The position numbers and the translations under genes were made by a program. From a virus, in the IMG/VR virus record IMGVR_UViG_3300048583_000202, positions 1 through 24,908 of that record: DNA of 24,908 nucleotides, one strand, 5' to 3'. Of this stretch, positions 2,883-24,111 are shown one piece after another. The notes under the pieces are model-generated. The model saw only the letters and a program-made list of their open reading frames with translations, was not told where the DNA came from and did not search any database. The stretch's first letter is position 1. Each line of letters starts with the position of its first letter.

Positions 2883-3079
2883 GAGTTCAATTGACCAATA
2901 CTCTTGGCCCAAAGTTGTATTTCTTCGATTACAGATTCAAGGGGCCGGTCACCGTGAACTACGCTTCGAACATAATTTCCCCCAATATCATAATAATCAG
3001 ACTTCAACGAAGTTCCATTTGGGCTAGATTTCAGTATTTCAACTCTACCGGTTGATGTGTTTTCGGTGTAAAGTATCAT
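2879..3079 (-). CDS. Small protein of unknown function (66 aa)
   Basis: I do not recognise this protein. It is 66 residues, with a predicted beta-rich first half (YTENTSTGRVEILK, SDYYDIGGNYVRSVV) and an amphipathic C-terminal helix (ESVIEEIQLWAKSIGQL). There are no cysteines and no membrane segment. It overlaps the VWA gene upstream and gene 33 downstream, each by 4 bp (ATGA), so it is translated within the same operon. The tight coupling on both sides is the main evidence that it is real. Confidence 0.7.
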   Translation of the reverse strand: MILYTENTSTGRVEILKSSPNGTSLKSDYYDIGGNYVRSVVHGDRPLESVIEEIQLWAKSIGQLNS

Positions 3080-3876
3080 AGTGACTCCTTGCGCTCATTC
3101 TCAGTGAATGCTCCCGCCGCACGAGCTTCAGTTGCACTCAACCCCGAACTGTAAGCCATTTTCATGGAAAGAGTTGACCGCCCGACAGCATTAATTGCCT
3201 CTGACATGTTCGCGGTATCATACGCAAGAGTGTTATGCGCGTTGAAGCCATATGCAGAAGATTGTGCAAATGCGTCGAGTCCTACACCAAGAAAAATAAA
3301 CGACCAATCTTTTTCTTCGGCGGCTTTCACCATAGCTTTAATTGTTGCAGTATCATAAGCTCGAGAAGTATTTTCTTCACCGTCGGTGAGAATTGTTATG
3401 ATAACAGTCTCGCGGTATTTCTTTTTCTTTTCAGAAAGGATAGAGTTTACAGCCTGCAAAGAAGATCCAATTGCGTCATTGAGATCTGTTGATCCATTTG
3501 CAAAGTAATTTTTAGTCGTGAGTTTTTCCATTTGTTCAATGGGTTTTCTAGAAACCACTACTTGATTTCTACCTGATCCGCAAAATGTTTCGATGGTCAC
3601 AACGGTTTGTGTTGTGGAAGTTTTATCACTTTCGCGATGTTTATCCAATAGCTCATTTACCGCTGATATAGTTTTCTCCACATGGGGAGACATAGACGAT
3701 GAAGCATCCAAAACGAATACTAGATGGCAAAGATTAGGATTCCCCCCTGCGCGCTTTGGTTTGAACTCGGGTGGTGCTACTCTAGAAAGAGTCGGCGAAG
3801 GCTGAAGGGGGATAGGTTGAGGTTGAGTTGGCATAGTAGGCATCAGATTAAGTGGATTGAACGGGATTAGTGTCAT
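3076..3876 (-). CDS. von Willebrand factor A domain protein
   Basis: This 266-residue protein has a proline-rich N-terminal 45 residues followed by a VWA domain. It begins LCHLVFVLDASSSM, with the metal-binding MIDAS residues in D-x-S-x-S (DASSS, about residues 57-61), a Thr in the NGSTDLNDAIG loop, and the Asp of ILTDGEE. VWA domains bind partner proteins through a divalent metal, and no enzymatic role is expected. A clear AGGAG precedes the ATG at 3876. It lies just downstream of the tmRNA and in the same operon direction as the AAA+ ATPase and metallopeptidase-VWA pair at 4931-7907, so it could be a third member of that module. This link is inference. Confidence 0.85.
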   Translation of the reverse strand: MTLIPFNPLNLMPTMPTQPQPIPLQPSPTLSRVAPPEFKPKRAGGNPNLCHLVFVLDASSSMSPHVEKTISAVNELLDKHRESDKTSTTQTVVTIETFCGSGRNQVVVSRKPIEQMEKLTTKNYFANGSTDLNDAIGSSLQAVNSILSEKKKKYRETVIITILTDGEENTSRAYDTATIKAMVKAAEEKDWSFIFLGVGLDAFAQSSAYGFNAHNTLAYDTANMSEAINAVGRSTLSMKMAYSSGLSATEARAAGAFTENERKESL

Positions 3877-3940: not shown

Positions 3941-3982
3941 TCAAGCCGCTAGGCGGACCTCAGGTGCAAAGTTGTTGTTTGC
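3941..3982 (-). other. tmRNA tag reading frame
   Basis: Starting at a GCA resume codon at 3982, the frame reads ANNNFAPEVRLAA and ends at TGA (3943-3941). An A lies at position -4 before the resume codon. The Leu-Ala-Ala end is the typical ClpXP degron, and the start resembles alphaproteobacterial tags such as Caulobacter's ANDNFAEEFAVAA. The frame is too short to be a conventional gene. Confidence 0.88.
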
Positions 3983-4064
3983 ATTTGTAGTTTTATTGCA
4001 GTAACGGCGCTTTCGCCCGGCATCTCGTTTATCTTCCGATCATCGTCGAAACCCTATCAGCCCC

Positions 4065-4129
4065 ATCAGGTATGAGAAGTGAAAACTTATTAATTCCTGC
4101 CCTCTTCACAGTTTAGGCCTTCTCATACT
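4065..4129 (-). other. tmRNA intervening segment with 10-bp closing hairpin
   Basis: Between the encoded CCA (4130) and the coding-piece 5' end (4064) lie 65 nt. GTATGAGAAG (4128-4119) is a perfect inverted copy of CTTCTCATAC (4079-4070), one nucleotide after the CCA and five before GGGG. The hairpin would hold the two halves together in the precursor and mark the region removed during maturation. Confidence 0.8.
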
Positions 4130-4298
4130 TGGTGGAGCTGCCGGCATCGAAGCCGGGTCCGATCATCTTCCGCATCACTTACTTTCTATGGGCAATGCTG
4201 ACCCATTCAAAATCTCTTTGGGGGATAACTTCGGATCCTCGGCCAAGGCGTTCTGGTAGTTATCAACGTACCCGTCCCCAAAGAGAAACTCTATGCCT

Positions 4299-4930: not shown

Positions 4931-6061
4931 TCAGAACGGGGTGTTGTCATAGTCAGATGATTGTTTAGTCTTAGAGGTTTCTGGTTTTGACTCCCCTTCG
5001 TGCTTCGAATAGAACTCTAAAAATGCAATCTTAGTATCTTCGTCAAATTTATTCATGCAAAGGGTCAGAGCTTTTTTACGGTCCATGAAAATAGAGTATG
5101 TTTCGGCAATATGGCAAAGCCTACGAGTCGTGATAACTTCATTAAGCCCACCATTATCAAACGCCTTACGGATGGACCCTGCCCATTTGAGCAAAGTATC
5201 CACAAATTCTGTATCCTTAACACCTACGTGACTAAAATGGTTGACCAGAATTTTGCGTTCGGTTCTCATATCCGGATACTTCTGTTCAATTGTTACCGTG
5301 AACCGCTCAAGAAAAGCGTCGTCAATGATCTGGGCGGCAATAAATCGGCCGTCGTTTGATCCCTTTCCCTTTGTATTTGCTGTAGCGATAACATTGAAGC
5401 CTGGGGCAGGAGAAATAAGTTCTCCAGTTTTCTTGAGCAAGACTGGTTTACCTTCAAGCACACCCTGCAAGCAGAACAGTTTATTTGTCCCTCGGTCGAT
5501 TTCATCAATCAGCAGAATTGCACCGGCTTCCATTGCTTTTACAACTGGGCCTTTCTCAAAGACCGTATCACCATTCACGAGTCGGAAGCCTCCTAGCAAA
5601 TCTTCTTCGTCTGTAGCTGGATTGATTTGAATGCGCATCATTGATCTTCCCAAATTTGCACAAGCTTGTTCGACCATCATGGTTTTTCCATTGCCGGACA
5701 AGCCGGTTATGAATGTCGGGAAGAAAAGCTTGGAGCTAATGATGCTCTCGATATCAGAATAATTACCCCAAGGCACATATCTTTCATCGGAGGAAGGAAC
5801 ATAGATGTTATCTGTCGGCTTAGAGCTAACATTCTGTTCTTTCCGCCGCACAAATGTCGCAGACGAATCAGAGGAAAACTCTTTCAAAGAAGAGGCATCA
5901 TAAACACCAAACCGAACTTTTCGGAGAGTTTGAATCACATGGGAAATTTCCTTTGGGGTCAATCCATGTGTGGACAGATGATCTATAATACTTGCTCTGG
6001 GCCATTCGGTCTTGCCGGCCTTATTGCAAAGTTCCTCTAGGAGGAGTTTAGCTTTATCCAT
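4931..6061 (-). CDS. MoxR/CobS-type AAA+ ATPase
   Basis: The 376-residue protein has an N-terminal helical region of about 55 residues (possible winged-helix or CobS-like N domain), a linker, then an AAA+ domain. Walker A is GLSGNGKT (120-127), Walker B LLIDEID (183-189), sensor 1 ATANT (226-230), and an arginine-finger region DDAFLERF (248-255). This is the AAA_5/CobS-MoxR branch, which remodels partner proteins together with VWA-domain proteins. Phage copies are often annotated as cobaltochelatase CobS, but nothing here indicates cobalamin synthesis. It is 10 bp downstream of a large VWA protein with a metallopeptidase motif, the usual pairing. AAGGA precedes the ATG. The C-terminal tail is polar (SKPETSKTKQSSD). 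Confidence 0.9.
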   Translation of the reverse strand: MDKAKLLLEELCNKAGKTEWPRASIIDHLSTHGLTPKEISHVIQTLRKVRFGVYDASSLKEFSSDSSATFVRRKEQNVSSKPTDNIYVPSSDERYVPWGNYSDIESIISSKLFFPTFITGLSGNGKTMMVEQACANLGRSMMRIQINPATDEEDLLGGFRLVNGDTVFEKGPVVKAMEAGAILLIDEIDRGTNKLFCLQGVLEGKPVLLKKTGELISPAPGFNVIATANTKGKGSNDGRFIAAQIIDDAFLERFTVTIEQKYPDMRTERKILVNHFSHVGVKDTEFVDTLLKWAGSIRKAFDNGGLNEVITTRRLCHIAETYSIFMDRKKALTLCMNKFDEDTKIAFLEFYSKHEGESKPETSKTKQSSDYDNTPF

Positions 6062-6071
6062 AATGTAATCC

Positions 6072-7907
6072 TTAACAGAAAAGTTTCATGAGTTCGCGTG
6101 AAATTTCACGCCCCAATCTGATTCTACTAGAAGAATCCTTTAGTCGTTTTGCGCCGAATACAAATTCTATATCATAACCCCTTGTTCTAGTCAACTCTTT
6201 TTTTAATTCACCAGGGCCGGTGTTGATGAAAAAATTTAACGTCTTGATTCCGTTGGCTGACATATTTTTTAGTAAAGATTGATCAAACTTGTCGGCCGAT
6301 GTGTTAATGTTTGTGTTAGTTTCTTTTGACATCATGGTATATTTAGTTGCCTTGATGCTTCCACTACCGCCTCTATTTCTGAAGTGAGGTCTGTGTCCAT
6401 CTCCGTCAGTGATCGAAATGAATGATACTTTATCAAGCTTGTGTTTCCGTTTAAAACGAAACACGTGCTCGTGCATCAGATACAAACTTTCGCTCAATGG
6501 AGTTCCCCCAAGATGAGAATGTTTGCTCTCCCCATGCAACAGGTCATTCCGAGCAACGTCATACTTCTCTTTTTTCATTGACGATGAAAGAAGCAGAATG
6601 TGCTTCATACCTCGAACATCGAGTGATGCTGCTTTGGCGTGTAAAGTCAAAGCAGAACTCGTGGGTCTACCGGGAAATTGTGCATTAACGCTTGAAAAAG
6701 CATAGGCTTCAAATGGGATGTTTACTCGGCGGCAAAATTCTGCTAAAATCAATAGTTGGGCCCGTGTTTCGGATATTACAGGGCCCATAGAACCTGAATA
6801 GTCAACTAGAAAAATTGCCCCATGATTTTTGTCATCGAGATATGATGTGTGCTGTTTAAAGATTTCATCAGTCAATTTGTAACGATGAAGCTTTGATGTA
6901 TCAAGCGACCCCAAGGTTGATTCTTCTCCCCTGGCCAATCTCTCAGCTGCTTTTTTCATGTTGAATTCTTGAACGAGAGATTCGATGAAAGGATTCCAAG
7001 TAGACATAAAACTATCGTAAATGGTCGGTGGACCAGCTTGATACTGTGGTGTTTCCACCACATCTAATGTATTTTTTTCACTCAGAAAATCCACAAATAC
7101 ATGAGAAGTATCAACTTTTGCAGATTGTTCCAATTTGTTATCAAACATCTCTTGCGTAATGATAATGTCAAATCTCATATTAGATTCAATCGGCCGCAAT
7201 CCGTTCTTATCTGACTTACCATCAGATGTGTTGCTCGAAGAATTTCCTTTTAGAGAATTACTGTCAGAATTGCTTTCTGATCCTTCTCCTTCGGCACCGC
7301 CACTTATGACTAAATTGCCATTAAACTCTATATCAGATGTGTTACCTTTACTTTTTTCCTCTTTGAGCCACTTATAGATAATATCAGTTACTTTTTTTAC
7401 ATCAGCCCAAGTTTTAACTCCCATCGCCATATCCAGATAAGGCTTTTCTTTCACCGAAAAAGGAGTTTTAATATAGCCTCGGGTCTTCGCATGTATATTG
7501 AGTCTGTCCATAAAACCAAGATGGGAAATTTTCTTGTTTCCTGCTGTCAAGCCAAAAAAATCCCTGTCAATTAGATCCTTGTAACCATTAATGTAATCAA
7601 CATATAGCCCTGGATATTCCTCAAGAATATTTTTCTCAATTCGAATATCTTCGATGCAGTTGAGGAAAGAAAGAGGAAACGGCCAATTCTTGTTTTCCCA
7701 CCACTCGTGGGGAGTCCACAGAGCATGAGCCGCTTCATGTGATACAAGAAGGTTGTATGTATAGTTAGTCAAATTCTCCCAGTTGGGGAGAATTAGAATA
7801 CGGTCTTTAATATCAAACCCGGCGGTTTTTGCTTGAGGTGAAATGTGTACTTGCAGATTTTCTTTTGCAAACAGTCTTGCAAGAATGCTTTTTTGGTCAA
7901 AAATCAT
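6072..7907 (-). CDS. Metallopeptidase-like VWA protein (CobT/NorD type), partner of the AAA+ ATPase
   Basis: The 611-residue protein combines two modules. Near the N-terminus is a zinc-metallopeptidase-like signature, HEAAH (57-61), followed by NCIEDIRIE (83-91), the N-x-x-E-D-x-R-x-E motif also seen in NorD/CobT-type proteins, where Glu could be the third ligand. A Ser/Gly/Asn-rich linker (about 202-235) follows. The C-terminal VWA domain has a complete MIDAS: DYSGS (369-373), T469 in GGTPLSE, and D501 in ITDGDG. MoxR-type ATPases act on such VWA proteins. Whether HEAAH is catalytic is unknown. GAGG lies five bases before the ATG, and a sigma70-like promoter lies just upstream, so it heads a transcription unit running through the ATPase. 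Confidence 0.85.
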   Translation of the reverse strand: MIFDQKSILARLFAKENLQVHISPQAKTAGFDIKDRILILPNWENLTNYTYNLLVSHEAAHALWTPHEWWENKNWPFPLSFLNCIEDIRIEKNILEEYPGLYVDYINGYKDLIDRDFFGLTAGNKKISHLGFMDRLNIHAKTRGYIKTPFSVKEKPYLDMAMGVKTWADVKKVTDIIYKWLKEEKSKGNTSDIEFNGNLVISGGAEGEGSESNSDSNSLKGNSSSNTSDGKSDKNGLRPIESNMRFDIIITQEMFDNKLEQSAKVDTSHVFVDFLSEKNTLDVVETPQYQAGPPTIYDSFMSTWNPFIESLVQEFNMKKAAERLARGEESTLGSLDTSKLHRYKLTDEIFKQHTSYLDDKNHGAIFLVDYSGSMGPVISETRAQLLILAEFCRRVNIPFEAYAFSSVNAQFPGRPTSSALTLHAKAASLDVRGMKHILLLSSSMKKEKYDVARNDLLHGESKHSHLGGTPLSESLYLMHEHVFRFKRKHKLDKVSFISITDGDGHRPHFRNRGGSGSIKATKYTMMSKETNTNINTSADKFDQSLLKNMSANGIKTLNFFINTGPGELKKELTRTRGYDIEFVFGAKRLKDSSSRIRLGREISRELMKLFC

Positions 7908-10081: not shown

Positions 10082-10732
10082 GTATTGGTTTCTAATAGAG
10101 ATGAAGTTAGGTAGCCATTCTAAAGGATTCTCAATAAAGATTTGAGGTTTGGAATCATCTACTGCAATAATGGTCACAATCTGTTTTATGTTCATTCGGA
10201 ACAGTTCTGTTGCACAAGCCCAATAGAATGATTCTTGCATAAAGTATGATGTAATATCGGACCTTGATTTTGGTCGTTTACTGGTCTTAAAGTCAATGAT
10301 TGCCGGCTTAGAATCAAAATCTGCTATCAAGTCACATCGGCCGGCAGTCTTTAGTTTGTCTGACCAAAGCACTGTTTCCTGTGCATAGATGTTGTCTAGG
10401 CGGGTATCAAGTATCGGCTTGATACTTTGAAAAGTCATGAGATTAATCGGCATGGTCCCGGTCTTATAGTCTTTATTGTTGATGTAATTTTCTGCTATAA
10501 GGTGAACTTCAGATCCTCGAGTGGCGGCTTGGCCACGAATTTTTTCTGCTTCTTCTTTTCCTACACGTTCTTCCCAAGCTTTTAGCTCGGGTTTCTCAAT
10601 AACACTAAGAACAGTTGTTACTGATGGATAAACTGAACCTGATGGATGTGTGTAGAATCTGCCTGTTGGGGTTGTATCTACTTGAAAGTCTGGAAGTTTT
10701 ACTTCAATTGGCACATGCCTAAACGTCTTCAA
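10061..10732 (-). CDS. PD-(D/E)XK nuclease (phage exonuclease, RecB/Cas4-like), TTG start
   Basis: The protein has the RecB-family nuclease motifs: a G-S-E-V-H-x-x-A-E-N-Y motif (RGSEVHLIAENYI), then AGRCDLIADF with the Asp, IIDFKTSK as the D-x-K core, and the QESFYWAC helix. These bind metal and cut DNA. Phage members are often called exonucleases. I recall the family N-terminus F-x-H-V-P-I-E as being close to the start. Here TTG at 10732 begins MKTFRHVPIEV and has ATAGGA six bases upstream, overlapping the previous gene by 14 bp. A further-upstream TTG (10759) lacks a ribosome binding site. It likely processes phage or host DNA in replication or recombination. Confidence 0.85.
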   Translation of the reverse strand: MKTFRHVPIEVKLPDFQVDTTPTGRFYTHPSGSVYPSVTTVLSVIEKPELKAWEERVGKEEAEKIRGQAATRGSEVHLIAENYINNKDYKTGTMPINLMTFQSIKPILDTRLDNIYAQETVLWSDKLKTAGRCDLIADFDSKPAIIDFKTSKRPKSRSDITSYFMQESFYWACATELFRMNIKQIVTIIAVDDSKPQIFIENPLEWLPNFISIRNQYKRIKGI

Positions 10733-11186
10733 TGCGTATCCTATCGTAGTTAAATTCAAACGGCGGAAGTTCTAGTTTTGATAAGTCGTACTTTTGCTTT
10801 TTATATGAAAGTGAAACGTGTGGTCTGTAGGTCGGCCAGGAATCTTTTAGCCCTAGTTGTTCAACTGTTTTTCTTGCAAGTTCTAATTCGGTAGACTTTA
10901 CAAGAATCACTGGTATGTCTTTGTCCTCTCCGAACAATTCAAACCTAATAGGTGTACTTGTCAATCTTTTTATAACGAGTCCGTTCTTTAGATCGACATA
11001 GTTATTGCTGTAAATAATTGTCGTGTGAAACTTAAACTTTGATGGGTCCCTAGTCTTTCCGTCATATGTCAATGATAGATCAAACCCGTGTTGAGTTGCC
11101 CAGTCAATCATTTTTTTGTTTGTGTTGCTATCGAAATACGCCGAGACATATTTTCCAGTCTTTATATGTTCACTGAATCGTTTCAT
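10719..11186 (-). CDS. 2H phosphoesterase, Acb1-like (candidate anti-CBASS protein)
   Basis: The 155-residue protein carries the two 2H motifs, FHTTIIYS (H54-x-T56) and RPHVSLSYK (H123-x-S125). Each is followed by a hydrophobic strand and Tyr-Ser or Ser-Tyr, as in T4 gp57B/Acb1 (about 152 residues), which has the same motif pair. Acb1 degrades the cyclic oligonucleotide signals of CBASS defence. The N-terminal TGKYVSAYFDSN segment also fits the Acb1 layout as I recall it. 2H enzymes also include 2'-5' RNA ligase and cyclic phosphodiesterase relatives, so the substrate is an inference. The ATG at 11186 overlaps the PAAR gene stop by ATGA. Confidence 0.7.
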   Translation of the reverse strand: MKRFSEHIKTGKYVSAYFDSNTNKKMIDWATQHGFDLSLTYDGKTRDPSKFKFHTTIIYSNNYVDLKNGLVIKRLTSTPIRFELFGEDKDIPVILVKSTELELARKTVEQLGLKDSWPTYRPHVSLSYKKQKYDLSKLELPPFEFNYDRIRIEDV

Positions 11187-16211: not shown

Positions 16212-17110
16212 ATATTATCCAACAAAGTTGTCCATTGTTTAGATCTTGCCTCCCAGGAATACAGATCATTTGCTATCTGCATTGTGTACGGGGGAATAGA
16301 TTTACCTTCTAAATGATTATACACTACACTTCGCATAGAGTCAACAAACACCTTGAGATGTACTTGAGGCCTCTCGTCATACGTATAGATATTGGTCAGC
16401 CCAAGTGATGTTTCTGGAAGGGCAGCTAATGAACTATGAACACATTTTAAACCGTGACACATGGACTCGATCAAAACTAAACATGATGTTTCCGGCCATA
16501 TTGAAGGATATGCAAGAACATCATGATTTAGAAGTTCACTCCGGATTCGCGAGTTTGAAACAGATTTAGAGTAAGTAACACCTTTTGTAGAAGTGAGTTC
16601 GCGAAACAGATCGCCAAATGGTTTGTCTCGTTCTTCCCAGCCATATAGATCAAATGAAGAAAATACACTCAACTCTATACGCTGCCCAAATTCTTTTCGG
16701 AGCTCTTTGAATGCTGCTGATAGAATGTTTAATCCTCGGTGCGGAGTTGAAAAATAGATCAATCTACACACATCGGATGATTCTTTTCTTGAAGCTATAC
16801 AAGGATCAATTGCGTTTTGCAAAACAGTCCCGGCCGAATATGGGACACCAAGAATCAGGTTATACATCTGCTGCTGCCAGTGTGATACAAAAACTAGCTT
16901 ATCAAATTTTTGCCATCCTCCATTTCGAAGATGTTCTACTTCAGGATCCCCCGGCAGATCGTGGAGTAAATAGATCTGTTTCTTAGTTTTGTCGAGTCCC
17001 CTGACCCTGGAATGTGTAATCTGGAATTTTGAAAGCAATTCTGGCGGCAAAGAATTTATCCTTGCCGCCATAAGCTCAGTCCCGCCTCGAGCTACTTTAT
17101 TCGTATTCAT
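16196..17110 (-). CDS. Glycosyltransferase, GT-B fold (GT4-like)
   Basis: The 304-residue protein has features of GT4-type retaining glycosyltransferases: an N-terminal ARGGTELMA segment, LVFVSHWQQQMY, a linker with LIYFSTPHRGLNIL, and the E-x7-E donor-binding motif in PETSCLVLIESMCHG (about residues 219-233). It transfers a sugar from a nucleotide donor. The acceptor could be phage DNA, a virion protein or cell surface; the sequence does not decide. It starts within the end of the deoxyribosyltransferase-like gene (14-bp overlap). Confidence 0.85.
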   Translation of the reverse strand: MNTNKVARGGTELMAARINSLPPELLSKFQITHSRVRGLDKTKKQIYLLHDLPGDPEVEHLRNGGWQKFDKLVFVSHWQQQMYNLILGVPYSAGTVLQNAIDPCIASRKESSDVCRLIYFSTPHRGLNILSAAFKELRKEFGQRIELSVFSSFDLYGWEERDKPFGDLFRELTSTKGVTYSKSVSNSRIRSELLNHDVLAYPSIWPETSCLVLIESMCHGLKCVHSSLAALPETSLGLTNIYTYDERPQVHLKVFVDSMRSVVYNHLEGKSIPPYTMQIANDLYSWEARSKQWTTLLDNIWHGH

Positions 17111-17579
17111 TACTTATTGTTTCCTTAAGAAGGGCTAGAAACCCCGCCTTTGTTTCCCTGAGCTCTACACCATCATAACGATCACAAACGACTTTCACAT
17201 TCCCATAGCGGTAAAATTTTGGAGAACAGTAAACTATTGTTTTACCCCAGCCGTAAACTGAAAGTCCCAACTCCATAAGCGTGATGGGCGATCTCGAGTC
17301 ATCTGCAAAATAGTAGACTCTGATTCCTGACCATTCCTGTGCTTCAAGCTCCCAAGTCACTTGCTCATGAAATTTGGTTCCAGGTGTAGGGTCCTGCTCC
17401 CAGGAAGAATCCCAATCGTCCCGTCGTGGATTTAGAATTACTATGGGATAGATAAGTGCTGAAAGTTCTTTGGTTAACCAATCTTGCCAAGGCTCTGCTT
17501 GGCCCATATCAATTGATCCTCCAAGAAAAATTAGACGGGAATCCTTGTCGAAATACTCAGGTGCCTTAATTACTTTCAT
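17097..17579 (-). CDS. Nucleoside 2-deoxyribosyltransferase-like protein
   Basis: The 160-residue protein has the fold signature RLIFLGGSIDMGQAEPWQDWL, ILNPRRDDWDSSW, EQVTWELEAQEWSG and SPITLMELGLSVYGW. The G-G-S-I, N-P-R-R and M-E-L-G segments match the Nuc_deoxyrib_tr_2 type family. These proteins exchange bases on deoxynucleosides or cleave N-glycosidic bonds. The Glu of the MELG segment would be in the active site. It is coupled to glutaredoxin (14-bp overlap) and to the glycosyltransferase, consistent with nucleotide metabolism. Substrate unknown. Confidence 0.82.
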   Translation of the reverse strand: MKVIKAPEYFDKDSRLIFLGGSIDMGQAEPWQDWLTKELSALIYPIVILNPRRDDWDSSWEQDPTPGTKFHEQVTWELEAQEWSGIRVYYFADDSRSPITLMELGLSVYGWGKTIVYCSPKFYRYGNVKVVCDRYDGVELRETKAGFLALLKETISNEYE

Positions 17580-18378: not shown

Positions 18379-18536
18379 TGCGCCCCCATGATAAGCAAAA
18401 GAAAACCCCCAATTGCGACTAGCCCCACCGAAAACCCATACCAAAAACCGAGGCCGAACAATTTTGATAAGACCCCCAGAAAAACCGGGGGTCCGAGAAG
18501 CATGAAAAGAATAACAAAGAAAAGTTCACCAGTCAT
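18375..18536 (-). CDS. Small two-pass membrane protein (53 aa)
   Basis: The frame from ATG 18536 to TGA 18377-18375 encodes two hydrophobic segments: LFFVILFMLLGPPVFLGVL, then FWYGFSVGLVAIGGFLLLIM, with only a short SKLFGLG between them. It overlaps the CCA-adding enzyme stop (ATGA) and the next start (ATGA). This double coupling in an otherwise empty 154-bp interval is strong evidence that it is real. Function unknown. Confidence 0.7.
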   Translation of the reverse strand: MTGELFFVILFMLLGPPVFLGVLSKLFGLGFWYGFSVGLVAIGGFLLLIMGAQ

Positions 18537-19768
18537 TGAACCATACTCACCGCTTTGATTCTTGCTGCTGTCATCTTTTCCTGGATTTGGGCAGCGGTTG
18601 GATTTTGGAGCTTGAGATCATCAAATTTAACTGACATATATGCATCGGCCATTTTTTGAACCTTGATTTTATCAGAAACATCAATCTCCTCAAACCCGAG
18701 CCGACCCCGCGCATCTGCCATCATCACATTCACAAGAACTTCAACCGAGTCTGGATCACGACGAATGTCCATGTCATCAAACATCTTCACCCATGTCTTC
18801 GGCCGAAACTCATTGAGTTTGTGCCCGGCCATATGCCACCGTGTTGCTTTCTTTGCCCACTGGGTGTATTTTGTGGGAACATTCATCCTTGAGCAAAAAG
18901 CTTCAGTGACTGCAACTCCATTGACATCATGATCATAGTGCTTGGGCATTTTTTCGCGCGGGGTCAGTCCTTTACCCAAATCATGACACAGTGCCGCAAC
19001 ACGAGAGGGAAGATCTTGAGCCATATTTGCTGAAGCTTTCAGAACCAGCATCGTGTGAGCAAACGAGTCACCTTCTGGGTGCCACCTGTAAGACTCCAGT
19101 GAACTTTTCAGAACATAGAGTTCAGGAAAAACTGGTTTCAAGCAGTCAATCTCCAGCAGAGTCTCAAAGAACAGATGGGGATTGGGTTCCATCAGAGCTC
19201 GAGAAACTTCCTTCCACACTCTGTCGGGCTGGAGTTCACCGAGAACACCTTTCTTTGCCATATTGTATGCAAGATCACGGGTTTCCGCAGCGACAGTCCA
19301 ATCACCACCAAACCTTGCCCGCAGACGAGCAAGACGAAGAATACGAACCGGGTCTTCTGCAAAAGCATCAGAAGTATGCCGCAGAACTTTTTCATGCGCA
19401 TCTTTTTTGCCGCCGAAAGGATCAATCACATGAACAAATCGAGTCTTCATATCATCAAAAACTTCGATTGCCATTGAATTGATGGAAAGATCTCTTCTTT
19501 TGAGGTCTTCTTCAAGCGTCACATTTTCAGTTTCAAAGGAGAAACCAACATAACCTTCGCCGGTCTTGCGCTCTTTTCTTGCTAGGGCATGTTCATCGCC
19601 TGTCACCGGATGAAGAAAGACGGGAAAATCTTTCCCGACCTGTTCATAGCCGGAATCCAGCATATCTTGGACTGTATATCCGACATGAACAAAATCTTTG
19701 TCCATCGACCTACGGCCGAGAACAAAATCGCGGACAAAGCCGCCAACTATGAAGATTTGTTTTTCCAT
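18533..19768 (-). CDS. cca: CCA-adding enzyme (tRNA nucleotidyltransferase) with HD domain
   Basis: The 411-residue protein matches E. coli Cca (412 residues) throughout. The nucleotidyltransferase has IVGGFVRDFVLG with catalytic D23-x-D25 (MDKDFVHVG), the ARKERKTGEGYVGF segment, LKRRDLSINSMA, and the AEDPVRILRLAR nucleotide-recognition motif (about 137-148). The C-terminal HD phosphohydrolase domain has CHDLGKGLTP (261-270). It repairs or builds the 3' CCA of tRNAs; the HD domain in bacteria has phosphatase activity. It is bacterial-type rather than a trimmed phage form, suggesting acquisition from a host. No ribosome binding site precedes the ATG, and the -10 box ends 6 nt before it, so the mRNA may be leaderless. 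Confidence 0.95.
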   Translation of the reverse strand: MEKQIFIVGGFVRDFVLGRRSMDKDFVHVGYTVQDMLDSGYEQVGKDFPVFLHPVTGDEHALARKERKTGEGYVGFSFETENVTLEEDLKRRDLSINSMAIEVFDDMKTRFVHVIDPFGGKKDAHEKVLRHTSDAFAEDPVRILRLARLRARFGGDWTVAAETRDLAYNMAKKGVLGELQPDRVWKEVSRALMEPNPHLFFETLLEIDCLKPVFPELYVLKSSLESYRWHPEGDSFAHTMLVLKASANMAQDLPSRVAALCHDLGKGLTPREKMPKHYDHDVNGVAVTEAFCSRMNVPTKYTQWAKKATRWHMAGHKLNEFRPKTWVKMFDDMDIRRDPDSVEVLVNVMMADARGRLGFEEIDVSDKIKVQKMADAYMSVKFDDLKLQNPTAAQIQEKMTAARIKAVSMVQ

Positions 19769-19774
19769 GAGAAA

Positions 19775-19803
19775 TTTATATCACATCAAATGTGATCAGT
19801 CAA
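19775..19803 (-). promoter_or_regulatory. Sigma70-like promoter of cca with palindrome in spacer
   Basis: The minus strand has TTGACT (19803-19798), a 17-nt spacer and extended -10 TGA-TATAAA (TATAAA at 19780-19775). The spacer holds ATCACAT-TTG-ATGTGAT, a perfect 7-bp inverted repeat that could be an operator. The expected start coincides with the A of the cca ATG. Confidence 0.6.
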
Positions 19804-20215
19804 CAACAGTTACCTTAATAACTCTAGTATAGTCAAGACTTTCAAAATACCCATGCCACGGAAGATACAAAATTTCTCCTTCATACTCAATAGTATAATC
19901 ATTGGATGCGGCTACTACTTTTTCTAATTTTTCCGCGGACTCCTTATCTGGATAAGCTTTTACAATAATAAAACCATGTCCAGAATCACAACCAAAACTA
20001 TATACCGCGGCCACGATCCAAAACTCTTTTGCGTCAAAATCCGTCACAAAAGATTCCCAACTATTTTCTTTTACTGCTTCATAGGTTGTATACACATTTT
20101 GGGACAAATAATTTTCGGTATCTGTATCAGCTCTTTCATATTCAGAACCATGTGAATCAAAATCAAGTTCACGTGTTACTCGGTCATAGCCATAGTAGAA
20201 AGTTTTTGCCATCAT
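19796..20215 (-). CDS. Unknown protein (139 aa)
   Basis: Not recognised. It is acidic and aromatic-rich, with a KTFYYGYDRVTRELDFDSHG start, a central FWIVAAVYSFGCDSGHGFIIVKAYPD strand pair, and a beta-rich end (EGEILYLPWHGYFESLDYTR). No membrane segment. It overlaps the peptidyl-tRNA hydrolase gene by ATGA; two ATGs are adjacent (20215 and 20212). Its last codons contain the -35 box of the cca promoter. Confidence 0.7.
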   Translation of the reverse strand: MMAKTFYYGYDRVTRELDFDSHGSEYERADTDTENYLSQNVYTTYEAVKENSWESFVTDFDAKEFWIVAAVYSFGCDSGHGFIIVKAYPDKESAEKLEKVVAASNDYTIEYEGEILYLPWHGYFESLDYTRVIKVTVVD

Positions 20216-20607
20216 CGATGCAGCCTAATTGATTTCAGTTTTTCTCTGTTTGGATCATTCTCAACCGAAAAATACCACATAGAAGTGATTTCTCGGCTTG
20301 TATAAACATCACCAAAATAATTGCGGTATGGATATGTGGGATCCACCACAAAATTTTTCTTGTTAAGCCCGAGGGAAAAACACAGCGAATTCATGTACTC
20401 GAGCTCTGCTTCTAGAACAATTGTCGTACCGAACCCATCGGCCTGAGCTGCCCACTCAGCCCAAGCTGATCCTTCTTCGACATAACGAGTATTTGCAAAA
20501 TATCGAGACGCTAGTGCTTGGGCATGTGCCGCTTGTGCGCCAAGTTTACCCGGATTCATATCCGGAATATCCTTGCGCATAATGATGTAGAGAATATGAT
20601 TTTTCAT
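20212..20607 (-). CDS. Peptidyl-tRNA hydrolase, Pth2 family
   Basis: The 131-residue protein begins NHILYIIMRKDIPDMNPG and continues GKLGAQAAHA, the Pth2 signature (M-R-x-D-L...G-K-x-A-A-Q-x-x-H-A; residues about 10-29). The W-A-x-x-A-D-G-F-G-T-T-I-V-L segment and D-P-T-Y-P-Y loop also fit. Pth2 enzymes release peptides from peptidyl-tRNA that has dropped off stalled ribosomes. AAGG precedes the ATG. Located between an L7/L12-motif protein and the cca region, it strengthens a tRNA/translation theme. Some phage Pth2-like proteins may have other uses, and activity is not shown. Confidence 0.78.
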   Translation of the reverse strand: MKNHILYIIMRKDIPDMNPGKLGAQAAHAQALASRYFANTRYVEEGSAWAEWAAQADGFGTTIVLEAELEYMNSLCFSLGLNKKNFVVDPTYPYRNYFGDVYTSREITSMWYFSVENDPNREKLKSIRLHR

Positions 20608-20608
20608 C

Positions 20609-20911
20609 TTAGCCTTTATATGAGGTATATTTTCTTAGTACATCAATGGCTTCTTTTAGGCCGTACCCGGACACCGCCCGAATTTCTTTTACCGCATCAA
20701 CGAGTCGATTGTTGTTGACCAAATACTGAAGAGAATTAATAAACTTTTCATCAAAGTCTGGTCTCTCAAATTTTTCCTCAGTCAGGGGCAATTTTGCCGA
20801 CGGTTCTTCTGCGAAGAATTTGCTTAGATTACTCGTATATGTGACTACACCAGAATTGACATCTGTCACTAGCCAACCGTTTGAGATTTGCGCAATTGTA
20901 AATTTTTCCAT
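20609..20911 (-). CDS. Protein with ribosomal L7/L12 C-terminal-like motif (100 aa)
   Basis: Residues about 69-93 (NRLVDAVKEIRAVSGYGLKE, then AIDVL) resemble the helix-loop-helix of bL12 C-terminal domains (K-I-x-V-I-K-x-V-R-E-x-T-G-L-G-L-K-E-A-K-x-L-V), which recruits translation GTPases. The first 60 residues are unrelated and beta-rich. So it is not a full L12 but could mimic its factor-binding face. It starts at 20911, sharing one base with the previous stop (TAATG), and is one base from the peptidyl-tRNA hydrolase start. Functional assignment is tentative. Confidence 0.65.
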   Translation of the reverse strand: MEKFTIAQISNGWLVTDVNSGVVTYTSNLSKFFAEEPSAKLPLTEEKFERPDFDEKFINSLQYLVNNNRLVDAVKEIRAVSGYGLKEAIDVLRKYTSYKG

Positions 20912-21598: not shown

Positions 21599-21803
21599 CA
21601 GTTGTTGATATACGTCGATCTGCCAATTCACGACACACTGACCAAAAAATTGTGTTTGCAGCCCAATGGAGATAAAGTGTTTTCCCCATTGGGCTAACGG
21701 GTTGCTTTTTCAATTCGGGTTCCATAATTGTTTTCTGATGGAACTCGTGATATAGGTTCCAGAGTTCTTTATTTGTCAGTTTTTCTAGTTTCTTTTCAAT
21801 CAT
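21591..21803 (-). CDS. Unknown small helical protein (70 aa)
   Basis: Not recognised. The product has a Lys/Glu-rich N-terminal helix (MIEKKLEKLTNKELWNLYHE) and a second helix with Trp and Cys (LHWAANTIFWSVCRELADRR). The ATG at 21803 overlaps the metallophosphoesterase stop as ATGA, so translation is coupled. No motif suggests a function. Confidence 0.65.
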   Translation of the reverse strand: MIEKKLEKLTNKELWNLYHEFHQKTIMEPELKKQPVSPMGKTLYLHWAANTIFWSVCRELADRRISTTDA

Positions 21804-22450
21804 AGTTCAATGTCCTCGTATGTGTCTTGCCCTACACAGATAAAATTTGTGCCCCGGAAATTGAGTTTCTGAGTAATGTGCCAATGTCCATAAATCCAGT
21901 ATTCCGGTTTATGATACTCAAACATTTCTTGAAGAGCCACGTTTGTTTCATTTGGAATCTGCTTAGCTTCTCGTCCGCCCATGGCCAACCCGGTCTTGAT
22001 GAACATTTCGTATGAAACATCAATTGGGGCATCATGGGTCACCATGATTCTGGGCTTGGTCACTTTGTAGATATCAATAATTGTTTCCCATTCCCGAGCT
22101 GACAGTTGCTCAGTATCCCACCAGTCATATCCTGGGGTCCGATAGGCGTGATCAATAGACCAAGCTCCTCCGACATACATGATGTCATTTTCGACTGTTC
22201 CGTCTTTGATCCACCCAAAGATTTCCTTGACTTTGTCGGGGTTATCGTGATTTCCCCGGATAAAGCCGGCCTTGGGTGTTTTTTGATGAAAATCTGAGAT
22301 GCGGTTGTGCCAGTAATCACTTTGGCCGAATCCAACGCCATAATCTCCCACCTGAATTACCCGGTCAGCGCCGTTTTTAAGGGCTTCCTCGGCGTATTCG
22401 TAATACAGCAGAGATTTACCGTGAATGTCGCCAACAAATCTTAGTTTCAT
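21800..22450 (-). CDS. Calcineurin-like metallophosphoesterase
   Basis: The 216-residue protein carries all motifs of the family in order: FVGDIHG (D8, H10), VQVGDYG-type VIQVGDYG (D36), IRGNHD (N67, H68), MVTHDAP, and YGHWH near the C-terminus. These bind a two-metal centre that hydrolyses phosphoesters. In T4-like phages such enzymes are common, with substrates mostly unknown (nucleotides, phosphoproteins or nucleic-acid ends). AGGA precedes the ATG. It is the first gene of the long minus-strand run and sits directly behind a strong sigma70-like promoter. Confidence 0.9.
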   Translation of the reverse strand: MKLRFVGDIHGKSLLYYEYAEEALKNGADRVIQVGDYGVGFGQSDYWHNRISDFHQKTPKAGFIRGNHDNPDKVKEIFGWIKDGTVENDIMYVGGAWSIDHAYRTPGYDWWDTEQLSAREWETIIDIYKVTKPRIMVTHDAPIDVSYEMFIKTGLAMGGREAKQIPNETNVALQEMFEYHKPEYWIYGHWHITQKLNFRGTNFICVGQDTYEDIEL

Positions 22451-22518: not shown

Positions 22519-24111
22519 ATGTACAAAACACTCTATGATTTAGTAGAATCAACAGCTACCTTTACTCAGGGCAGTATAGTTCAAGCTGGCGCGTACCAAT
22601 ATGAAGTAACTAGAAAGAAAACAAATCTTTCTGATCCTACTCCGGCAGCTAGAGTGTCAACAAAAAGTGGTTGGCTTCTAAAACCTCTGCTGAATGCTCT
22701 AGGATCAATGACCGCTTCGGCGTTTGGGGGTGACAATTTTTCACACTTGCCATTTTCTGAAAAATATTCTTCATCATCTGCTGCTGACGATTTGCTTGCT
22801 TATGTGAAAGAAGTTGGCTGCCCAGGTGTATTTGATGTTCGTATTTCTAGAAGAGAAGCATTAGTTTTGCCGGATAGCGATCAGAATTATTACTTTCTAG
22901 ATTTGTTGGTGCCGCTCCCCAAGTTAAATTCGTCGGTTTGGGGAGCGGATGAATACATGATTAATGTCACAGGTCGTAACGTTACATTACATGGCCCAAA
23001 ATTAGAATGCATGCACAGAGCCAATGGAATTAGAATTTCGTCTGGAAGCGTGTATATTGATCACGCAAAAATAAAATCATTCACAAACGTCGGAGTTCTG
23101 TTTGCTGGGTCGGCAGGCAACAATGTTTTGTTTGAGCCCGAGATTACGCAAATTGATTCGACCGATCTTCCGAGATTTAATGTTGACTCTAATTATACCG
23201 GAACCTGTATCAAATTTACCAGACCAGATGACATTGTGATAGGAGGAATATCTCGATGGGCTGGCATTTGTGTTCACTTCACTGACACAGCGACAACTTG
23301 CCAACTGATTCGGCATCACCCATATAACGGCCGGCCTTCGATACCAAACGAAGTTTTGCCGAGAAAAAATCCAAAACTCATTCGAGTAGACCGTGGGGCA
23401 AGTAATATCAACATTTTTGATTGCTACTTGGATAATGGACAGATAGATCTATACACAGACAGTACACGATTGAGAAACAACATGTTTCTTTGTAACACAA
23501 AGGCGGTTGAATATACTGAAAAATATGTAATCGGAATACACCCATCCGTTGCTAATCAGGGTATGCCGACCAGACTCGACATTGACACTTATGCGGTTTC
23601 AAATCTTCCAGCAGACTTTAAATTTTTAGATTTTAGATCGAGTGCATCTGCTTGGTGGGCAGTTTCGATGACCCCGGCTGATATAGTGGGGTTGACGAGC
23701 GGCGTAGTAAGAGTGAACGGGCCAGAACATAGCGTTATAACTAGTCCGAATACTGCTGATGGTAATGTTGTAAGCAGAACATACAAACCTGTTGGAACAA
23801 TGCAGTATATAAAACAACTGGGATCCGGCCAAGAATATACGGAGACATATGGTTCGTCATATCAACTCGAAATAAATGGAGTCAATAGATTTCGAGTAAA
23901 TCCAAGCAAAGGTGTTTCGATTGGGCCCGCCGCCCCGCATTCATCCGCGGCACTTGATATACAAAGTTCTGATGGGTTCTTAATTGTTCCTCGGATTACA
24001 TCCGCAGCAAGAGATAATCAAACACCAATTGCAGGCGCAATAATTTACAATACGACAATCAATAAATTTCAGGGCAGAATTGCCGGCGCTTGGGTTGATT
24101 TAAATACATGA
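22519..24111 (+). CDS. Receptor-binding tail protein / tail spike, beta-helix type
   Basis: The 530-residue protein has an N-terminal attachment-like region (MYKTLYDLVESTATFTQGSI), then a repeated parallel beta-helix pattern (INVTGRNVTLHGPKLEC; GIRISSGSVYIDHAKIKSF; GVLFAGSAGNNVLFEPEI; NINIFDCYLDNGQIDLYT). The end is a classic tail-fibre C-terminus: ALDIQSSDGFLIVPRITSAA, then PIAGAIIYNTTINKFQGRIA and a final WVDL. Such proteins bind the cell surface, and some cut polysaccharide; no clear catalytic residues can be named. AATAGG lies upstream of the ATG, with a late-promoter-like box before it. It is followed 22 bp later by another tail protein gene. Confidence 0.85.
   Translation: MYKTLYDLVESTATFTQGSIVQAGAYQYEVTRKKTNLSDPTPAARVSTKSGWLLKPLLNALGSMTASAFGGDNFSHLPFSEKYSSSSAADDLLAYVKEVGCPGVFDVRISRREALVLPDSDQNYYFLDLLVPLPKLNSSVWGADEYMINVTGRNVTLHGPKLECMHRANGIRISSGSVYIDHAKIKSFTNVGVLFAGSAGNNVLFEPEITQIDSTDLPRFNVDSNYTGTCIKFTRPDDIVIGGISRWAGICVHFTDTATTCQLIRHHPYNGRPSIPNEVLPRKNPKLIRVDRGASNINIFDCYLDNGQIDLYTDSTRLRNNMFLCNTKAVEYTEKYVIGIHPSVANQGMPTRLDIDTYAVSNLPADFKFLDFRSSASAWWAVSMTPADIVGLTSGVVRVNGPEHSVITSPNTADGNVVSRTYKPVGTMQYIKQLGSGQEYTETYGSSYQLEINGVNRFRVNPSKGVSIGPAAPHSSAALDIQSSDGFLIVPRITSAARDNQTPIAGAIIYNTTINKFQGRIAGAWVDLNT

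Follow-up and report, generated by a model that had tools for sequence, protein, structure and literature searches.

The 24,908-base virus record IMGVR_UViG_3300048583_000202, analysed here over its whole length (the window), encodes a CCA-adding enzyme and a Pth2-type peptidyl-tRNA hydrolase close together on one strand. The window is a fragment of a large T4-like phage and contains the T4-like replication genes gp32, a gp59-like helicase loader, T4 RNase H, PhoH and a CobS-like ATPase. An earlier note, made from the letters of this DNA alone, had placed the two genes in a translation-maintenance cluster with the gene of an L7/L12-motif protein, and had added a transfer-messenger RNA (tmRNA) 14 kb away. 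The coordinates given there for the three genes, 18533-20911, hold. As to their being neighbours or near-neighbours, the L12-motif gene does adjoin that for Pth2, but an orphan open reading frame (ORF) of 139 amino acids separates Pth2 and CCA. The features concerned are the following.

18533..19768, minus strand: CCA-adding enzyme of the E. coli type with HD domain, 411 amino acids, full-length (Pfam, PHROG, NCBIfam, motifs)
19796..20215, minus strand: orphan 139-amino-acid ORF between Pth2 and CCA, its start overlapping the Pth2 stop (ATGA)
20212..20607, minus strand: Pth2-type peptidyl-tRNA hydrolase of a phage subfamily, 131 amino acids (Pfam, profile of relatives, AlphaFold fold)
20609..20911, minus strand: 100-amino-acid protein, beta strands at the N-terminus and an L7/L12-like alpha4-alpha5 hairpin at the C-terminal end (residues about 69-94)
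3941..4184, minus strand: permuted two-piece tmRNA (Rfam RF04321)

The CCA-adding enzyme was confirmed by Pfam and PHROG. Three Pfam domains were found over their cut-offs, PolyA_pol (PF01743, 3.2e-16), HD (PF01966, 2.4e-8) and the RNA-binding domain PF12627 (6.8e-6), and the protein matches PHROG 2244, tRNA nucleotidyltransferase, at 1e-107 over residues 3-408. The match to NCBIfam NF008137, the multifunctional CCA addition/repair protein, is full length with 444.6 bits, about 6 bits short of the cut-off of 451. The translation retains the motifs GG-x-VRD...DxD, RRD-x-x-IN, EDPVR and HD, in keeping with a class II CCA tRNA nucleotidyltransferase: a head with GG-x-VRD and DxD, a neck with EDxxR and a C-terminal HD domain. 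On profile scores alone, CCA models outscore PcnB and A-adding models by far on the predicted enzyme. The closest proteins in the phage collection share 42-46% identity with it, those of the Sinorhizobium phiM12 group 46%.

For the Pth2 protein the direct match to Pfam PTH2 is marginal (4e-5, just over the cut-off). Aligned with eight phage relatives, it matches the Pth2 structures 1rlk (4e-7) and 1xty (3e-6), and with a profile of 50 phage Pth2 sequences only Pth2 structures match at E<0.01. The AlphaFold model has a mean predicted local distance difference test (pLDDT) score of 94.5, and in a Foldseek search of the PDB all of the ranks 1-12 are Pth2 (2zv3, 1rlk, 3erj, 1q7s, 1xty and 1wn2 among them), with TM-scores of 0.47-0.67. 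The Pfam match, the profile and the fold ranks together establish the Pth2-type hydrolase that the earlier note had proposed, the last by the structure prediction and search that it had suggested as a check. The residues K20, H27, D88 and T107 are invariant in 50/50 Pth2 sequences, as is an N-terminal R-x-D...GK-x-x-AQ-x-x-H motif with the active-site lysine. After the active-site aspartate, D-P-T-Y-P replaces the cellular D-x-G-R-T in the phage proteins, with the aspartate and the later threonine remaining invariant; we take D-x-G-R-T to be a motif frequent in cellular Pth2 and not one shown to be required.

Relatives of this Pth2 were found in 17 phage records, all from phages of alphaproteobacteria. 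Searching viral contigs directly with this one Pth2 sequence found nothing. No part of the nine-sequence alignment (A1) was conserved enough for a pattern search, and a four-sequence alignment (A2) was used instead, giving 111 phage-type Pth2 matches in viral contigs. Slightly longer patterns gave one match, L490, among 84,980 prokaryote genomes. Given the 111 viral-contig relatives against one in the prokaryote genomes, the Pth2 of the window belongs to a phage subfamily. The 283-kb contig L490 comes from a binned bacterial genome; as genes for an Rnl1 ligase, a CCA enzyme and a macro domain also lie on it, it looks like a phage contig that was probably binned with bacterial DNA.

The Pth2 and CCA genes of the window are at most 0.5 kb apart, and the gene order around them is conserved in relatives. 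L228 matches the window through phosphoesterase, Pth2, CCA, deoxyribosyltransferase, ORF90, glutaredoxin, glycosyltransferase and ORF382, and L223 matches it from Pth2 through ORF382. The genes of this order with assigned coordinates in the window are these.

21800..22450, minus strand: calcineurin-like phosphoesterase upstream of Pth2, its position kept in the relatives L224, L228, L217, L232 and L234
17802..18074, minus strand: ORF90, a 90-amino-acid protein without assigned function, kept in L223 and L228
17566..17805, minus strand: glutaredoxin, within the conserved gene order
17097..17579, minus strand: nucleoside 2-deoxyribosyltransferase-like protein downstream of CCA, within the conserved gene order

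A CCA gene lies at most 4 kb from Pth2 in L192, L195, L210, L223 and L228; in the CCA enzyme of L192 no HD domain was seen and the tail domain is a different one. In all six close pairs of CCA and Pth2 both genes are on the same strand. Of the 18 long contigs that have both genes after dereplication, four have them within 6 kb, where 1.4 would be expected (p = 0.04). RNA-repair genes also recur near Pth2. In L490 a macro domain gene, RNase H, Pth2, HD, an Rnl1-type RNA ligase and CCA follow one another within about 6.5 kb, so that the macro domain is upstream of Pth2 and CCA about 3.3 kb downstream, with the ligase between them. The relatives closest by Pth2, L224 and L232, both encode a PNKP-type HAD phosphatase just downstream of Pth2 and have RNA ligase genes within about 2-4 kb of it. 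Over 80 Pth2 neighbourhoods, an RNA ligase was found in 9 and CCA in 11, compared with none in 240 control loci. CCA was found in 22/35 Pth2 contigs and in 7/38 controls. The evidence that Pth2 is linked to RNA-repair genes is better than what we found stated in the literature.

The tmRNA is real as well. Rfam RF04321 (tmRNA_permuted) matches over the full model, 1-213, with 91.5 bits (cut-off 47) and an E-value of 1e-16, 14.3 kb from the CCA gene, in agreement with the distance first reported. The acceptor piece, whose CCA is encoded, comes before the coding piece, and the tag, taken by hand from the Rfam alignment, reads ANNNFAPEVRLAA followed by UGA; it is an open frame with a small hydrophobic C-terminus. 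The tags of relatives, read from the alignment, are ANDNVAPVAYALAA and ANEERFLAAA. The phage contig that holds the syntenic relative L223 also bears a permuted tmRNA (L245).

The earlier note had proposed that conservation of co-occurrence with phage tmRNA be checked, and here its expectation was not borne out. A permuted tmRNA was present in 6/8 Pth2 phages at first look, and in 19/35 Pth2 contigs of at least 49 kb versus 7/38 neutral contigs (p = 0.002), the latter picked by a random 14-mer or a tRNA arm. Among contigs of at least 99 kb this excess disappears (12/22 versus 5/13, p = 0.49; with duplicates removed, 11/18 versus 5/13, p = 0.29), and a coupling of tmRNA to Pth2 was rejected. From the other side, this Pth2 was found in 0/47 tmRNA contigs of at least 15 kb and in 0/16 gp32-based relatives, mostly short contigs, and CCA or RNA ligase in 0/80 tmRNA neighbourhoods, with queries that were biased towards Pth2 loci. 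As the size-matched counts are alike and the tmRNA neighbourhoods are without CCA or ligase, tmRNA is common in large phages, and a tie to Pth2 or CCA is unsupported. The tmRNA of a large phage should thus not be read into a tRNA-salvage set without size-matched controls.

Several side observations concern the detection and frequency of tmRNA. ARAGORN found no tmRNA in the window; it missed a permuted form that is clear in Rfam, and survey counts based on ARAGORN may be low. Any tmRNA has been reported in 2.3% of cultured phages (PMC9004378), a share exceeded by the 5/13 neutral viral contigs of at least 99 kb with a permuted tmRNA over the Rfam cut-off. The record behind one neutral control (L294; G128, 518,643 bases) has a permuted tmRNA, two Pth2 matches and two CCA matches, one of the latter with internal stops.

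A large T4-like phage thus probably carries a tRNA-salvage set, CCA and Pth2, in an RNA-repair neighbourhood. Family membership, the Pth2 fold, the invariant residues, the conserved order and the recurrence of Pth2 near CCA, RNA ligase and PNKP-type phosphatase are observed; the activity of the enzymes, their timing and a possible counter-defence role are inferred. The CCA enzyme would rebuild tRNA 3' CCA ends that are missing, and its HD domain may also strip phosphates from damaged ends. Pth2 would cut the ester bond of peptidyl-tRNAs dropped from stalled ribosomes, making the tRNA reusable. Together the two could hold the usable tRNA pool high during infection, also in the wake of tRNA cutting or trimming by host nucleases. 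On this reading the tmRNA is a separate gene of the phage for ribosome rescue, and the protein with the L12 motif an unproven companion. Of the coordinated strategy for keeping tRNAs and ribosomes usable that the earlier note had suggested, tRNA salvage by CCA and Pth2 is supported, by the families, the kept order, the proximity (p = 0.04) and the RNA ligases and PNKP-type phosphatase nearby; membership of tmRNA and L12 is not. A four-part module of CCA, Pth2, L12 and tmRNA did not hold up, with tmRNA at background and the L12-motif gene unconserved, and linkage was found only between CCA and Pth2.

Some of the same data weigh against a salvage set. Most phages having both Pth2 and CCA keep them tens of kilobases apart, and at 99 kb or more, with duplicates removed, the excess of CCA in Pth2 contigs is marginal (15/18 versus 6/13, p = 0.05). 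The contrast between Pth2 and control neighbourhoods is inflated because the ligase and CCA queries were taken from Pth2 loci and the controls from smaller phages. Neither RNA ligase nor PNKP phosphatase was found in the 25-kb window, which yielded only a 2H-family, Acb1-type protein. Alternatively, large phages could carry the genes as general cargo, gained singly for a small translation gain each, and their closeness could be incidental packing in a long co-directional run. In favour of this, besides the wide spacing of CCA and Pth2 in most phages with both, the minus-strand genes from about 22450 to past 15063 are all co-directional and tightly packed, unrelated ones included; neutral contigs of at least 99 kb often have a permuted tmRNA (5/13) or CCA (6/13); and the L12-motif and 139-amino-acid genes are missing from relatives. 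However, the proximity of CCA and Pth2 is above chance and seen in several lineages, with the same strand in six out of six close pairs, and RNA-repair genes cluster near Pth2. We regard incidental packing as unlikely, if the most serious of the alternatives.

It could also be that the phage Pth2 serves as a counter-toxin, deacylating tRNAs that host GNAT toxins have blocked by acetylating aminoacyl-tRNA, instead of recycling drop-off products. Bacterial Pth undoes the acetylation of glycyl-tRNA by TacT (PMC9241777), and the Pth2 here is of a phage subfamily, with 111 viral-contig matches and one match to a similar pattern in 84,980 genomes. That activity belongs to Pth1, however, not Pth2, and the window and its relatives give no pointer to a GNAT toxin as target, the neighbours being RNA-repair genes. 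Such a role for the window Pth2 is accordingly quite improbable.

If the salvage set is true, it adds to the case that large phages guard the tRNA pool beyond ligating cut tRNAs: 3' ends would be rebuilt and tRNAs released from peptides left incomplete. The phages in which Pth2, CCA, RNA ligase and PNKP-type phosphatase recur near one another offer a concrete set for testing.

The 100-amino-acid protein carries an L12-like hairpin, as far as can be told from its sequence: the G-x-G-L-K-E-A of the alpha4-alpha5 hairpin is present, and the five best PDB sequence matches are all L7/L12 (E 0.025-0.54, about 26 residues). By an alignment that we treat as a lead only, the hairpin presumably retains positions matching E. 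coli L7/L12 residues V66, K70 and R73 and has V in place of I69; a literature search on these L7/L12 residues found no paper. The protein stops after the second helix of the motif, so that the remainder of the C-terminal domain is missing, and its match to Pfam L12 (PF00542) covers profile positions 13-33 of 67 with 14.9 bits, under the cut-off of 25.9. Modelled from its sequence alone, the protein shows strands at the N-terminus and three helices, without the strands of the L12 domain, at a predicted template modelling score (pTM) of 0.45. The structure search for L12 similarity that the earlier note had suggested gave neither L7/L12 nor any meaningful match in the PDB with Foldseek; with a single-sequence model of that pTM, the failed search is weak evidence against L12. 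Given the score under the cut-off, the incomplete domain and the failed fold search, to name it an L7/L12 protein is unwarranted; the L7/L12 motif of the earlier note survives as a hairpin, and "L12" overstated the rest. Homologues were found in 0/80 Pth2 loci, syntenic relatives included, and neither tblastn of phages nor a direct search of viral contigs with this protein found anything. It resembles L488, a weaker Pfam L12 match, over 42 residues.

It is highly improbable that this hairpin protein and the phage Pth2 form one ribosome-targeted unit, in which the hairpin docks on elongation factors or the ribosome stalk and delivers Pth2 for cleaving peptidyl-tRNA at or near stalled ribosomes, alongside tmRNA and the CCA enzyme in a ribosome and tRNA rescue system of the phage's own: the L12-motif stop codon is 1 nt from the Pth2 start, the hairpin positions may match and functional-looking L12 domains occur in phages (PMC6375957), but the protein has no homologue at other Pth2 loci, its domain is incomplete, the fold search fails and Pfam L12 matches over cut-off, in 5/38 contigs searched, are never beside Pth2.

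The idea of tRNA salvage by CCA and Pth2 is already published (PMC7824862; PMC11242549). A survey of 224 jumbo phages proposed CCA, Thg1, RNA ligases and Pth2 as repair or rescue functions against host RNases (PMC7824862; Viruses 2021), with the same Pth2 and CCA families as in the window and a proposed restoration of tRNA 3' ends and freeing of tRNAs from incomplete peptides. That survey mentions neither tmRNA nor L12 (0 occurrences); the window differs from it in a Pth2 and CCA at most 0.5 kb apart, on a T4-like phage fragment, in an order kept in relatives. Sinorhizobium jumbo phage AP-J-162 encodes tmRNA, L7/L12, peptidyl-tRNA hydrolases and a tRNA nucleotidyltransferase, interpreted in terms of translation much as here, but has a 471.5-kb genome with 66 tRNA genes by tRNAscan (PMC11242549). 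RaK2 carries CCA and Pth2 (PMC3622015). As the jumbo-phage survey, AP-J-162 and RaK2 already report such genes, the window is a new instance of a known kit.

Homologues of the window Pth2 (29-35% identity) occur in the Sinorhizobium phages phiM12, phiN3, phiM7 and phiM19 and in Rhizobium phage RHph_I1_18, and the Sinorhizobium group also has the CCA enzyme with 46% identity to the window's. A metallophosphoesterase is near Pth2 in phiM12 and RHph_I1_18, as in the window, whereas CCA and Pth2 of phiM12 are about 21 kb apart. RHph_I1_18 has a permuted tmRNA; phiM12 and phiN3 do not. Phage bL12 domains (PMC6375957) and phage tmRNA (PMC9004378, PMC7162821) have also been described. The window protein has the G-x-G-L-K-E-A hairpin of the factor-binding face in common with phage-encoded bL12 (PMC6375957) but consists of the hairpin alone, not the whole C-terminal domain, and is under the Pfam cut-off. 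Marine phage Melnitz and others (PMC9004378), different phages from that of the window, likewise have a permuted two-piece tmRNA gene.

For the orphan ORF at 19796-20215, neither a family nor a relative was found in Pfam, PHROG or the Pth2 loci of relatives. Promoter and terminator scans gave nothing better than shuffles, and Rfam reported no glutamine riboswitch in the window at the threshold used. The remaining features are listed below.

10719-11186, minus strand: 2H-family protein, Pfam Acb1 (anti-CBASS protein) at 7e-18, over cut-off; its PHROG family is labelled RNA ligase
22519-24111, plus strand (opposite): 530-amino-acid ORF whose sole match, a weak one, is to a tail fibre at the C-terminus
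3076-3876, minus strand: VWA protein, near the tmRNA
4931-6061, minus strand: CobS-like AAA ATPase, near the tmRNA
6072-7907, minus strand: PHROG 459 peptidase family protein, near the tmRNA

The tmRNA lies in the gap that separates the VWA gene from its upstream genes.

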